Of a stretch of 64,000 nt of DNA, positions 32,828-42,739 are shown piece after piece. The notes beneath the pieces are model-generated. The model did no database searches. It saw only the letters and a program-made list of their open reading frames with translations, and had not been told where the DNA came from. Made by a program: the position numbers and the translations under genes. Positions within the stretch are counted from its first letter, which is position 1; each line of letters begins with the position of its first letter. This DNA is from a virus: positions 1-64,000 of IMG/VR virus record IMGVR_UViG_3300048918_000175; one strand, written 5' to 3'.

Positions 32828-32900
32828 TGCCCTAGACAGGACTCGAACCTGTGCCTCCGGTTTCGGAAACCGGCACTCTGTCCAACTGAGCTACGAGGGC
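32828..32900 (-). tRNA. tRNA-Arg(CCG)
   Basis: 73 nt, 7-bp acceptor GCCCTCG, anticodon stem CCGGT/ACCGG with loop TTCCGAA, T loop TTCGAGT. Reads CGG. First tRNA of the array on the left. Confidence 0.92.
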
Positions 32901-32905
32901 AATGA

Positions 32906-33115
32906 TTAGCGTGGTTTGTTACTGTGATCGTCAAAGTACCACCCACACATATGTCCGGCATGGGCTACGGAGACTGTACGAATGGTTGCCGTATCCAGCG
33001 GAGTCTGCGCGAAACTGAGCAACCTCTCGCACTGCGCCCGTGGAACATATCCGTCGTCAAAGTCACAACCCATTACAGCGAGGGCCAAGAGACCCATTAC
33101 AAGGTATTTCTTCAT
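32906..33115 (-). CDS. Small lipoprotein, paralogue A
   Basis: 69 residues from the ATG at 33115. Lipoprotein signal MGLLALAVMGC. Mature part aligns with the next gene (C.RLLSFAQT.LD then MCGWYF against TLIALARTQQDSMF then ACATYL). Host-envelope location inferred; function unknown. Confidence 0.65.
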   Translation of the reverse strand: MKKYLVMGLLALAVMGCDFDDGYVPRAQCERLLSFAQTPLDTATIRTVSVAHAGHMCGWYFDDHSNKPR

Positions 33116-33336
33116 TTGGTGCCCAGAATCTGAGCGTTCCCTGCCTCTCTCAGATACGTGGCGCAGGCATACGCACCTTCTTGTGGACGTGCGTTCCTCA
33201 CGAACATTGAATCCTGTTGTGTCCGCGCGAGGGCAATGAGGGTCGTGCATGCCTTGAAATTAAAGGCACTTTCGCTGACTGTATCACACCCCGTCAGGAG
33301 CGCGACCATTCCTAGTACCATGCAAATTCGCTTCAT
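33112..33336 (-). CDS. Small lipoprotein, paralogue B
   Basis: 74 residues from the ATG at 33336. Signal MVLGMVALLTGC with Cys about residue 17. Tandem paralogue of the downstream lipoprotein, coupled by ATGA. Two later Cys may form a disulfide. Confidence 0.65.
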   Translation of the reverse strand: MKRICMVLGMVALLTGCDTVSESAFNFKACTTLIALARTQQDSMFVRNARPQEGAYACATYLREAGNAQILGTK

Positions 33337-33347
33337 GTGATTCCTCC

Positions 33348-33578
33348 TCACTCGTACCGTCGCCGCCGACATTCGGCTTTGAACTGGTTGTATGGTGCCC
33401 CTGCATTGTGCTCGCGCTGGGCGTCATTCGCCCAAATGTATCCACACCAACACTGATGCCGCCAGAACTTGACGGGAATGTCAATGGGTGAATAGTGCGA
33501 CTCAACCGCCATTGCGCGATCTATGGGTTCTACCATCTTCCCACAGACGGGACATGCTTCTCTCACTTTCGTACTCAT
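33348..33578 (-). CDS. Zinc-ribbon protein
   Basis: 76 residues. CPVCGKMVEPIDRA near the start and HQCWCGYIWAND later form a Cys4-type ribbon. Unrecognised otherwise. Confidence 0.65.
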   Translation of the reverse strand: MSTKVREACPVCGKMVEPIDRAMAVESHYSPIDIPVKFWRHQCWCGYIWANDAQREHNAGAPYNQFKAECRRRRYE

Positions 33579-33594
33579 GTTTCACCTCATTCAG

Positions 33595-33668
33595 TGCGCC
33601 CGGAGGGATTCGAACCCCCGACCTTCTGATCCGTAGTCAGACGCTCTATCCAGCTGAGCTACGAGCGC
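33595..33668 (-). tRNA. tRNA-Arg(ACG)
   Basis: 74 nt, anticodon stem TCTGA/TCAGA with loop CTACGGA; T arm GGGGG/CCC with TTCGAAT. Reads CGT. A second Arg(ACG) is at 38100. Confidence 0.92.
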
Positions 33669-33835
33669 GTGTGGATGGGCAACGCCATGTCCGCTCCCAC
33701 CCTGCTAAATCCTTCCGGGTACTCGTAAAGGGGTCCAGGTTCTGCCCTCGCCCCGCCTCTGTCATCGTGGTATCTCACCATGTTTTAACGACTGACAAGA
33801 GGTTTTCCACCGCTGCATGGGGACTTCTGTGCTAC
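33669..33835 (-). other. Non-coding stretch with nested hairpin
   Basis: 167 bases without a gene. At 33756-33802 CCTCTGTCA pairs with TGACAAGAGG (one bulge) around an inner CGTGGT/ACCATG stem. It lies between a tRNA and a membrane-protein gene. Confidence 0.45.
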
Positions 33836-34192
33836 TTATACCTTGAGCCCGAAGCGTTCCGGGGTGTTCTTGGGCTTTGGTGAGCGCATCTCATCGAACG
33901 TGCGACACCGAACCTGTTCAATCTGCTTCAGTGGGAGTCTGAGACCCGCAAACTTCAACTCCCACTCCCATCGTGTCTTACCTGACTCAAAATCAACCCA
34001 AGAGACGGCCTTCCGTTCGCGCACAATCGCGCCAATCTCATTGATGATGACCCACTCAGGATCAATCGCGGGGTTTCGAACCCAATCCTGTTTGGGCTTT
34101 CGCTTGAAGAACGTCTTGCGCCGTTTCCAAAGCCACCCGATCAGGTCAATTCCAAACGCGAGCACAAAGCCCCAAAACATTCCTTCGATCAT
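33836..34192 (-). CDS. Membrane-anchored hypothetical protein
   Basis: 118 residues. N-terminal helix MFWGFVLAFGIDLIGWLW, then basic residues and a polar domain (PEWVIINEIGAIVRERKAVS). Start overlaps the upstream stop. Unrecognised. Confidence 0.6.
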   Translation of the reverse strand: MIEGMFWGFVLAFGIDLIGWLWKRRKTFFKRKPKQDWVRNPAIDPEWVIINEIGAIVRERKAVSWVDFESGKTRWEWELKFAGLRLPLKQIEQVRCRTFDEMRSPKPKNTPERFGLKV

Positions 34193-34377
34193 GGTATTGG
34201 TACCGTCTCAGCAAAATGTGGATCGACCGCGTGCAATGCGTTCTGTGCAGCGAGTTCCTCTTTCACGAGGTTTATCTCTCGCCGTGCTTCCTTCGTGGTC
34301 ATCTTCGATACGTCAATCGCGAAGATGCGACCCCTCGGACGATTGTTGTAGTCCTGTGGTAGTTTATCCATTTCCAT
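34189..34377 (-). CDS. 62-residue hypothetical protein
   Basis: Helical, charged (SKMTTKEARREINLVKEELA). Its ATG is two bases from the tRNA-Glu(CTC) 3' end. Unrecognised. Confidence 0.55.
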   Translation of the reverse strand: MEMDKLPQDYNNRPRGRIFAIDVSKMTTKEARREINLVKEELAAQNALHAVDPHFAETVPIP

Positions 34378-34379
34378 AA

Positions 34380-34451
34380 TAGCGCATAGGGGAATCGAAC
34401 CCCTCTCCCCCGGATGAGAACCAGGCGACCTAGCCGATAGTCGAATGCGCC
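34380..34451 (-). tRNA. tRNA-Glu(CTC)
   Basis: 72 nt. Acceptor GGCGCAT pairs with ATGCGCT (one G-T). Anticodon loop TTCTCAT between CCTGG and CCGGG. Reads GAG. Confidence 0.85.
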
Positions 34452-34508
34452 GTTCAGGGAGCCGTGTGAGTGTCCTGGCTTGACGATCCCACCCCGACCC
34501 CCTTGGTA

Positions 34509-34676
34509 CTACGAAACGAGCGGTGCGTTGAGTGCCATCATCTGGCGACCCGTCTGAATGTCGAGTGCCTCGACGTACTTCGGTCCCAACTCAGCCGCTG
34601 CCGCCGAGAGAATCGTGTGCTCCGCCGTCGGCAGAATCGCGCCCGTGCTACCCACAAAGACAAGCTTCGGTTCCAT
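34509..34676 (-). CDS. 55-residue hypothetical protein
   Basis: From the ATG at 34676, with a strong AAGGAGG site upstream. MEPKLVFVGSTGAILPTAEH; ends in a helix. Unrecognised. Confidence 0.6.
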   Translation of the reverse strand: MEPKLVFVGSTGAILPTAEHTILSAAAAELGPKYVEALDIQTGRQMMALNAPLVS

Positions 34677-34706
34677 GATATAGCCTCCTTGAAGTTGACC
34701 TACAAA

Positions 34707-41820: not shown

Positions 41821-41825
41821 ATAAG

Positions 41826-41896
41826 ATTACCGGATGGGATTCGAACCCATGATCGCGGCTTTGCAGGCCGCTGCCTTCCCACTTGGCTACCGATAA
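41826..41896 (-). tRNA. tRNA-Cys(GCA)
   Basis: 71 nt, acceptor TTATCGG/CCGGTAA, stem GCGGC/GCCGC, loop CTGCAAA. Confidence 0.92.
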
Positions 41897-41917
41897 TTTT
41901 CGCGGGCCTAAGCCCAG

Positions 41918-42000
41918 TGCGTCTGGAGGGATTCGAACCCCCACCCCCGAAGGGACCCGGTTCTAAGCCGGGCGCGTCTACCAATTCCAGCCACAAACGC
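41918..42000 (-). tRNA. tRNA-Leu(TAG)
   Basis: 83 nt type II, stem CCCGG/CCGGG, loop CTTAGAA, Leu-type D arm. Confidence 0.92.
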
Positions 42001-42061
42001 ATAACTACGGGAAGACTTTGTTCTCAGCGACACGCCGAGTTACTTCCCTTTTCTCTTTCAG

Positions 42062-42133
42062 TGGAGGATAGCGGGTTCGAACCGCTGACTCATGCGTGCA
42101 AGGCAAGTGTGTTCCCAGCTATACCAATCCCCC
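42062..42133 (-). tRNA. tRNA-Ala(TGC)
   Basis: 72 nt, acceptor GGGGGAT/ATCCTCC, loop CTTGCAC. One anticodon-stem mismatch. Confidence 0.87.
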
Positions 42134-42202
42134 ATTGTGCTCTATTCTTTTCGCCGTGACGAGCAGTCACCGCCTCTCTTTATCCCTGATGGCTTGGGTC
42201 AG

Positions 42203-42274
42203 TAGCGCGTACGGGAATCGAACCCGTCTTCCCTGGGTGAAAACCAGGCGTCCTAGCCGCTGAACGAACACGCC
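42203..42274 (-). tRNA. tRNA-Glu(TTC)
   Basis: 72 nt, stem CCTGG/CCAGG, loop TTTTCAC. Similar body to Glu(CTC) at 34380. Confidence 0.92.
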
Positions 42275-42279
42275 ATACG

Positions 42280-42474
42280 TCAGAATCCGTTCTTCAACGC
42301 ATTCTTCATTCGATCAACCATCACGTCATCCTCGACGTTGAACAAATCAGCACCCTGGCCGTAGGGTCGATCACCGAGATTGTGCACCAACTGGCCAAGG
42401 CGCAGATCAGGATAAGCAGACCAGAGGGCCTTCAGCAGGTCAGATGCTTCCTTGATCCTCTTTGGATCTCTCAT
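42280..42474 (-). CDS. 64-residue hypothetical protein
   Basis: From the ATG at 42474 (MRDPKRIKEASDLLKALWSA). YPDLRLGQLVHNLGDRPYGQ in the middle resembles a short protein common in phages and bacteria. Role unknown. Confidence 0.65.
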   Translation of the reverse strand: MRDPKRIKEASDLLKALWSAYPDLRLGQLVHNLGDRPYGQGADLFNVEDDVMVDRMKNALKNGF

Positions 42475-42495
42475 GTAGTTACCTCTCAGTAGTGG

Positions 42496-42565
42496 TAGCG
42501 GAGGGCCGAATCGCACGGTACTTTCTGGTTTATGAGACCAGCGTGACACAGTTCACTTCCCCACG
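42496..42565 (-). tRNA. tRNA-Met(CAT), initiator-like
   Basis: 70 nt plus an encoded CCA (42493-42495), the only encoded CCA I noticed. Stem CTGGT/ACCAG, loop CTCATAA. Position 1 is C opposite T72, an unpaired first position as in initiators. T loop TGCGATT departs from TTCGANT, and the T stem is weak. Confidence 0.65.
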
Positions 42566-42578
42566 ATAGTTCCAACAG

Positions 42579-42660
42579 TGCTCAGAGAGGGAGTCGAACC
42601 CTCACCCCTTTCGGGACCGGATTTTGAGTCCGGCGCGTCTACCAGTTTCACCACCCGAGC
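42579..42660 (-). tRNA. tRNA-Leu(CAA)
   Basis: 82 nt type II, stem CCGGA/TCCGG, loop CTCAAAA. Reads TTG. Confidence 0.92.
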
Positions 42661-42666
42661 ATGAAG

Positions 42667-42739
42667 TAGGCAATGTCGGATTCGAACCGACACCTGACGA
42701 GATGTAAACTCGTTGCTCTTTCCGTTAAGCTAATCGCCT
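42667..42739 (-). tRNA. tRNA-Val(TAC)
   Basis: 73 nt, acceptor AGGCGAT/ATTGCCT, stem ACGAG/CTCGT, loop TTTACAT. Rightmost tRNA of the array and first on the transcript. Confidence 0.93.

Follow-up and report, generated by a model that had tools for sequence, protein, structure and literature searches.

What would a virus gain from carrying tRNA genes for every amino acid in a single block, and are the genes of such a block sound enough for the question to arise? The case considered here lies in a window of 64,000 nucleotides (positions 1 to 64,000 of IMG/VR record IMGVR_UViG_3300048918_000175), for which an initial annotation had claimed 36 tRNAs covering all 20 amino acids, Trp, Cys, His and Met included, with Arg(ACG) and Asn(GTT) present twice. 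ARAGORN predicts 35 tRNA genes in the window, all on the minus strand between 32826 and 42739, and Rfam RF00005 at its gathering threshold finds 35 in the whole window and 36 when the entire 68,009-bp record is searched. What separates the two sets is tRNA-Lys(UUU) (40307-40378) and a 108-nt tRNA-like gene contributed by Rfam (34707-34814), so that their union is 36. The anticodons cover 20 isotypes, Met through one CAU tRNA, and the claim therefore holds, as does that of the two duplications, whose copies are divergent, neither pair figuring among the 15 most similar pairs of the array. With 36 genes in 9.9 kb, or 3.6 per kb, the locus falls within the definition of a tRNA cluster, which asks for 15 or more tRNA genes with 2 or more of them per kb (PMC6409571), and in both number and density it stands at the upper end of the viral clusters of 15-37 genes tabulated there.

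Both programs recover the genes given here, the 108-nt gene being an Rfam prediction (41.2 bits). In array order, the series opens with tRNA-Val(UAC) (42666-42739, 63.4 bits), Leu(CAA) (42578-42660), Glu(UUC) (42202-42274), Ala(UGC) (42061-42133), where the G3:U70 pair is present, Leu(UAG) (41917-42000), Cys(GCA) (41825-41896), with U73, Gln(CUG) (41748-41820), Pro(UGG) (41490-41564), Gly(GCC) (41406-41479), the second copy of Asn(GUU) (41175-41247, 70.2 bits) and Lys(CUU) (41089-41164). There follow the CAU-anticodon tRNA (40917-40992), which abuts Ile(GAU) (40840-40916), then Val(GAC) (40754-40827), in which C33 replaces U33, Tyr(GUA) (40597-40680), and Trp(CCA) (40383-40457, 46.1 bits) and Lys(UUU) (36.5 bits, the lowest score), each with two mismatches in the anticodon stem. 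The first copy of Asn(GUU) (40010-40083) precedes His(GUG) (39815-39888), which does not have the canonical G-1:C73, Gly(UCC) (39728-39801), Phe(GAA) (38657-38728, 46.8 bits), Asp(GUC) (38548-38620), Thr(CGU) (38465-38537), Ser(GCU) (38279-38365, 37.7 bits), Ser(CGA) (38176-38263), the second copy of Arg(ACG) (38099-38172), Ser(UGA) (37586-37670) and Thr(UGU) (37498-37571, the highest score at 72.6 bits). The remainder consists of Arg(UCU) (36246-36319), Thr(GGU) (36170-36243), Gln(UUG) (36095-36166), Leu(GAG) (34817-34901, 37.1 bits), also with C33 in place of U33, the 108-nt gene, Glu(CUC) (34380-34451), the first copy of Arg(ACG) (33594-33668) and, as the last of the array, Arg(CCG) (32826-32901). 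An additional CAU tRNA at 42496-42565 was rejected, as it scores 22.9 bits, below the cut-off, and the folding of its stretch does not exceed that of shuffled sequence (z 0.35).

The array is carried by an uncultured T4-like virus of bacteria, of whose genome the contig is probably a fragment. Arrays of this kind also occur in bacteria and plasmids, as two reports describe (PMC5966550, PMC12803027), and a piece of a bacterial chromosome or plasmid could in principle have been taken for a phage; this origin is, however, ruled out to near certainty by the gene content of an IMG/VR virus contig which includes matches to the Gp23-type capsid and prohead protease families, endolysin-like proteins, a phage ribonucleotide reductase, a primase and RNA ligases.

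That complete sets are rare in phages, as the initial annotation also stated, agrees with the 2019 survey of Morgado and Vicente, which sorted clusters by isotype order and in which 8 of 228 viral tRNA clusters had all 20 isotypes (PMC6409571), and with the Xanthomonas jumbo phage XacN1, whose 56 tRNA genes serve all 20 amino acids (PMC5852040). The phenomenon is thus rare but already known, and the present array is a further, well-supported addition to the few phages that display it. The likeness to XacN1 extends to a complete set among phage genes, a large phage, and translation or tRNA-processing genes; the XacN1 tRNAs, in contrast, encode CCA (28 of the 28 read), are interspersed within terminal repeats across ~20 kb, and count among them two amber suppressors, a type not seen here. 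The C1 mycobacteriophages such as Rizal, on which the anti-tRNase proposal was made (PMC10264068), have an equal number of tRNAs (36); megablast gave no match to them, and the public phage collection returned only tRNA-sized matches, to other phages. Three distantly related IMG/VR contigs with 24 tRNAs provide another complete 20-isotype set, although their tRNAs encode CCA and follow a different order. No close IMG/VR relatives were found for the 327-aa and 380-aa proteins. In the 595-kb uncultured phage LR756511 (60 tRNA matches) the genes are CCA-less with C74-U75 trailers in 35 of the 37 assessed, as in the array, but they are scattered across the genome, and one block contains no isotypes other than Ser, Leu and Tyr.

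Could such a set nevertheless be largely in decay? Under this explanation, drift and gene capture would have made the locus a tolerated landing site in which many copies are degenerating, and it is true that the order of the tRNAs is not conserved even with respect to a relative that shows 73% identity in the ribonucleotide reductase, that some copies are weak, and that a SegE-like GIY-YIG endonuclease is present on the contig (a defence-gene scan of 73 ORFs returned a homing endonuclease only). We regard it as improbable, since all 36 genes score above the Rfam cut-off of 29 bits (36.5-72.6), the copies are divergent rather than recent duplicates, complete coverage recurs in other phages, and the weak copies keep the same 3′ signature as the others. 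Pseudogenes scattered over several isotypes, which would have undone the initial annotation, are not what the scores describe: the weak copies are mostly backed by better siblings, as with the low-scoring Leu(GAG), Ser(GCU) and Lys(UUU), and to discount them costs no isotype, the exceptions being Trp and Phe, each a single copy of middling score. U33 is nearly universal in tRNAs, and its replacement by C33, like the stem mismatches, could impair decoding in several of these molecules. As for Met, the CAU tRNA is 64% identical both to the E. coli elongator Met and to Ile2 and 71% to fMet, and its best phage matches are annotated as other isotypes, mostly tRNA-Arg; its body cannot be told apart between Met and Ile2, so that it is Met by anticodon only and possibly Ile2.

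The signature in question concerns the 3′ ends. CCA is encoded only in tRNA-Ile(GAU), whereas all the others are CCA-less, and U74 or U75 occurs in 34 of the 34 CCA-less ARAGORN tRNAs and in the 108-nt gene, a uniformity which base composition would give with p about 1.7e-15 if the copies are independent. In Bacillus subtilis RNase Z, the U that follows the cleavage site enters a pocket, and hydrolysis requires it (PMC11649783), and the pattern is that which RNase Z processing would favor; since every CCA-less copy carries it, this suggests selection rather than decay. It would offer a simple sign, legible in the sequence, of phage tRNAs kept matched to the 3′-processing route of the host.

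The 108-nt gene has normal acceptor, D and T arms, and because its anticodon-like loop has 6 nt and some ~39 nt are extra, no anticodon is assignable to it. Enlarged tRNA-like genes recur in tRNA-rich phages outside the window, some of them resembling tRNAs with a 40-51-nt mini-intron, and a class of tRNAs with 40-51-nt inserts in the anticodon stem (CUGAYAAG type) is seen in KVP40, where the genes measure 113-121 nt, and in others; its members are those that regain U33 and an anticodon stem of 5 bp once the insert is taken out. As an intron-bearing tRNA of the KVP40 kind the 108-nt gene fails (score 0.6, against 6.5 for good members), and a search for its own class with GTCAAAGA...TCAGG gave one IMG/VR match, at which ARAGORN found no tRNA.

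If the genes are sound, what do they supply? By standard wobble the array reads 56 of the 61 sense codons, which amount to 95.6% of phage codon use. The classical explanation would be codon compensation, the tRNAs reinforcing the supply for codons in heavier use in the phage than in its host, a tendency reported for XacN1 relative to its own host (PMC5852040); here, within synonymous families, a mild preference falls on the codons that the tRNAs match exactly (mean log RSCU 0.011 versus -0.136 at random, p=0.026). The fit to phage codon preference is nonetheless weak, and the array holds tRNAs for nearly everything, including the single-codon Trp and Met that compensation need not supply, all of which makes this an unlikely account, though a less unlikely one than drift. 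The expectation of little dependence on host tRNAs is at most plausible, on the breadth of coverage. No initiator-type tRNA, aminoacyl-tRNA synthetase, CCA-adding or tRNA-modifying enzyme appears among the contig ORFs scanned.

A different function is suggested by three adjacent minus-strand genes at 6095-9791: (i) a protein like T4 RNA ligase 1 (6095-7324; PF09511, phrog_562), with a KMDG motif; (ii) a Pnkp-like RNA-healing enzyme (7314-8681; AAA_33 and Metallophos, with 4gp6 and 4j6o matches), which joins a P-loop kinase to a metallophosphoesterase; and (iii) a second RNA ligase, similar to that of Naegleria (8715-9791; PF09414, 5cot match), with a KIHG motif. The genes of a T4-type tRNA repair (Pnkp and Rnl1), an RNA kinase-phosphatase and a ligase with catalytic motifs, are thus present, although the T4 kinase-phosphatase is not known to have a phosphatase domain of the metallophosphoesterase type. 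Rnl1-like enzymes may also serve in tail-fibre attachment, and because the repair genes lie ~23 kb from the array, their functional link with it is one that we infer. According to one proposal, phage tRNAs escape the action of anticodon nucleases, and T4-type ligases mend the tRNAs that have been cut (PMC10264068); one report describes evasion of retrons by phage tRNAs (PMC11555353), and another reports that amplified anti-defence loci allow evasion of Septu, by which tRNA-Tyr is cleaved (PMC13096335).

The repair genes point as much to resistance against tRNA cleavage as to codon supply, and with a kinase-phosphatase of the Pnkp type encoded on the contig together with two RNA ligases, a replacement pool set against the loss or cleavage of host tRNAs is therefore the reading we favor. 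We hold with moderate confidence that the array supplies the infected cell with a nearly complete, general-purpose replacement pool. Its genes would be co-transcribed from the minus strand, the precursors would be cut by the RNase P and RNase Z of the host, whose enzymes would also add CCA and charge the products, and these tRNAs would sustain late phage translation when those of the host are lost through host shut-off or anticodon nucleases, the repair enzymes mending the ones that are cleaved.

The surroundings of the array are also organized. Upstream, on the same strand, are an exonuclease or flap-endonuclease-like gene (43716-44657, phrog_107) and, between it and the array, a phrog_461 gene (43099-43713), in conserved order; a strong terminator-like hairpin (42750-42780) stands just before the first tRNA. 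Within the array, the spacers between the Tyr and Trp tRNAs (40458-40596, z -2.76) and the Asn and His tRNAs (39889-40009, z -2.75), likewise on the minus strand, fold strongly by single-sequence z-scores, no homologous spacer having appeared in any of the loci compared. Following the last tRNA by 20 bp, a minus-strand gene encodes an RNase H-like protein of the DUF458 or YkuK type (32339-32806; PF04308, E 1.5e-15), which is array-associated in other tRNA-rich phages too: in the three distantly related contigs, which share the upstream exonuclease (44%) and phrog_461, the DUF458 gene (58%) sits inside the array. The cultivable Stenotrophomonas phage DLP_6 likewise has a similar array that encloses a DUF458 gene. 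As a tentative proposal, this protein would be a dedicated phage nuclease acting on array transcripts, in their processing or surveillance, within a conserved module of exonuclease, phrog_461 gene, tRNA array and DUF458; its roles may include, for example, 3′ trimming or the clearing of precursors and failed tRNAs. If true, the link would be a lead on the function of a conserved protein family of unknown role, and the conjunction of the array, the repair enzymes and an array-linked gene with an RNase H fold makes it possible to test tRNase resistance against codon supply.

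In the window, ARAGORN finds 35 tRNA genes, every one of them minus-strand and within the interval 32826-42739; the Rfam tRNA model at its gathering score likewise finds 35 in the window, and 36 in the whole 68,009-bp record. The initial annotation had counted 36, and rightly so, because each program adds one gene to the 34 they have in common: Lys-UUU (40307-40378), seen in the window by ARAGORN only and scoring 36.5 bits in a record-wide Rfam search, and a 108-nt gene (34707-34814; 41.2 bits), seen by Rfam only. The two copies each of Arg-ACG and Asn-GUU are also present, and all 20 amino acids are represented, as judged by anticodon. 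With the Rfam tRNA model, no tRNA was found outside the array in the whole record, which may be a fragment, since no end repeats were detected in its 68,009 bp.

As regards quality, all 36 genes exceed the Rfam cut-off of 29 bits, and 31 of the 35 ARAGORN genes combine U33 with an anticodon stem containing one mismatch or none. The exceptions are Lys-UUU and Trp, whose stems have two mismatches, and Leu-GAG and Val-GAC, which carry C33. The lowest scores are those of Lys-UUU, Leu-GAG and Ser-GCU, and for each of the three another copy of the same isotype scores better. The CAU tRNA is 64% identical to the elongator Met and 64% to the Ile2 of E. coli, both references being confirmed as annotated tRNA-Met and tRNA-Ile, and 71% to fMet, and its best phage matches carry other isotype labels, mostly Arg; it is Met by anticodon only, and if it were Ile2 the set would drop to 19 isotypes. 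This is a genuine phage tRNA array, complete in isotypes by anticodon and probably functional, and it adds one to a known, rare kind.

In the 116 predicted minus-strand ORFs (17,331 codons, some of the ORFs surely spurious), 56 of the 61 sense codons, or 95.6% of usage, can be read by standard wobble, the codons without a reader being UUA, UCC, CCC, AUA and GCC; the preference for exactly matched codons is slight (p=0.026). The proposal of little dependence on host tRNAs thus stands as a possibility on paper. The matches listed for the approximately 100 ORFs scanned include neither an aminoacyl-tRNA synthetase nor any enzyme for CCA addition or tRNA modification, and none of the array's tRNAs has initiator features. 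Decoding by Arg-ACG, of which there are two copies here, would require deamination of A34.

The source virus is a T4-like phage, judging by matches to a Gp23-type capsid, a prohead protease, a FEN/RNase H-type exonuclease and a class II-like ribonucleotide reductase (RNR); the public phage collection holds no close relative, and the nearest RNR relatives are IMG/VR contigs of 73-76% identity. Three RNA repair genes adjoin one another: a T4 Rnl1-like ligase with a KMDG motif (6095-7324), a kinase and metallophosphoesterase (7314-8681) matching 4gp6 and 4j6o, solved structures of Pnkp from Clostridium thermocellum, and another ligase, which resembles the Naegleria enzyme and has a KIHG motif (8715-9791). 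The T4 ligase mends tRNA-Lys cut by PrrC, and phage tRNAs have been proposed to resist anticodon nucleases (PMC10264068). Together with these precedents, the repair genes favour, by inference, a role in tRNA protection, and the likeliest role of the array would be that of a general replacement pool countering tRNA loss. The window also encodes a Tad2-like (Thoeris anti-defence 2) protein (12828-13163; PF11195, E 1.5e-7) and a SegE-type GIY-YIG endonuclease (48611-49021), which lies upstream of the array at a distance of about 6 kb; in phage T6, amplification of anti-defence loci is reported for another Seg enzyme, SegB (PMC13096335).

The array is preceded by an exonuclease gene (43716-44657) and a phrog_461 gene (43099-43713), which occur in the same order ahead of the array in the distantly related contigs L003, L005 and L007, whose 24 tRNAs likewise cover 20 isotypes. 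Downstream, an RNase H-like gene of the DUF458 family (PF04308; 32339-32806) follows the last tRNA at a distance of 20 bp; its homologue in those contigs (58%) lies within the array rather than beside it. DUF458 has matches in only 75 of 50,697 public phage records. Eight records beyond the window, picked for diversity, were examined, and all are tRNA-rich (21-37 tRNA matches in each of seven whole phage records, 13 in a single fragment); the gene is inside the tRNAs or within 1.5 kb of them in six (DLP_6, X1, DSS3P8, G014, Milchi and S13), and 4.9 kb and 5.9 kb away in KVP40 and phiKT1024. The combined proximity has p 2.6e-7, for genomes that are not fully independent and include G014, found by a search seeded with the window's own gene. 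In S13, the neighbouring gene is annotated as tRNA nucleotidyltransferase. Acidic residues of the RNase H-fold kind are conserved (D28, E82 and D107 invariant), and the 2014 superfamily survey, in the part bearing on this family, lists DUF458 as RNase H-like without an assigned function (PMC3985635). Our hypothesis is that the protein could be a tRNA-array nuclease. The gene stands beside or within the arrays of otherwise distant tRNA-rich phages: the window, L117, L118, L119, L120, L122 and L003.

Among the 35 ARAGORN tRNAs, only Ile-GAU has an encoded CCA; the other 34 all have U at 74 or 75 (C74-U75 in 26, U74 in 8), and U also follows the 108-nt gene, the chance of 35/35 being about 1.7e-15 given base composition, if positions are independent. 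In the structure of B. subtilis RNase Z, the U after the cleavage site enters a pocket and is required for hydrolysis, according to PMC11649783, citing Pellegrini 2012. Taken with this requirement, the U in every CCA-less tRNA suggests that they have been kept fit for maturation by RNase Z. The same signature is found in 18 of 18 assessed tRNAs of L104, a relative with a 73%-identical RNR, and in 36 of 37 from three stretches of the 595-kb uncultured phage LR756511 (35 being CU). In contrast, CCA is encoded by most of the tRNAs in XacN1, PA5oct, KPP-1 and L003, and CAA predominates in a 290-kb relative; the U trailer is therefore a habit of lineage, not universal, and probably set by the host.

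In the 108-nt gene the acceptor, D and T arms are normal, but the anticodon-like loop has 6 nt and there is an extra hairpin. The gene most resembles a 108-nt gene of phage X1, with which it shares GTCAAAGA and TCAGG around that hairpin, a likeness between two sequences that proves little. It is not a member of a separate class of enlarged tRNA genes. In that class the genes are 113-123 nt long, and 40-51 nt are inserted into the 5' strand of the anticodon stem; it is present in KVP40 (W11:179304-179416, 180970-181090 and 181101-181213), Cronobacter S13 (W09:132702-132822 and 132832-132944), Erwinia Kaldavass and more than a dozen IMG/VR contigs, including L126, L130, L151, L152, L160, L162, L180, L182, L189, L194, L196 and L209. 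In most members, excision of the insert gives a strong 5-bp stem, U33 and an ordinary anticodon. Within the insert are an ACAGCA-like motif and a CUGAYAAG hairpin with covariation in its stem (pairs 3, 4 and 6). In the IMG/VR members the conservation of CUGAYAAG and GCA is partly built in, as both formed part of the pattern used to search for them; the pattern specified neither the covariation of the flanking stem nor the recovered anticodon arms. On six of the sources, tRNA was the only Rfam family to score at its cut-off, and a literature search found no published report of such inserts. The class is well supported, and from their sequences the inserts look like mini-introns of phage tRNAs, apparently undescribed. 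In LR756511, a CAU tRNA (220338-220430) has a 21-nt hairpin insert directly 5' of the anticodon loop, its arm being canonical without it, and a block of 11 genes (2258-5381 of stretch L022) contains only Ser, Leu and Tyr, the isotypes with long variable arms, as if sorted by class.

The T4 tRNA cluster contains stable RNAs, and two spacers of the present array (39889-40009 and 40458-40596), which are closed by long terminal stems and fold much better than shuffled sequence (z about -2.75), may likewise be stable RNAs; their structure is a hint only, because some ten spacers were tested, as single sequences without relatives. Moderate structure (z about -1.7 to -1.9) is seen in the spacers 33669-33840, 41248-41405 and 40993-41088.
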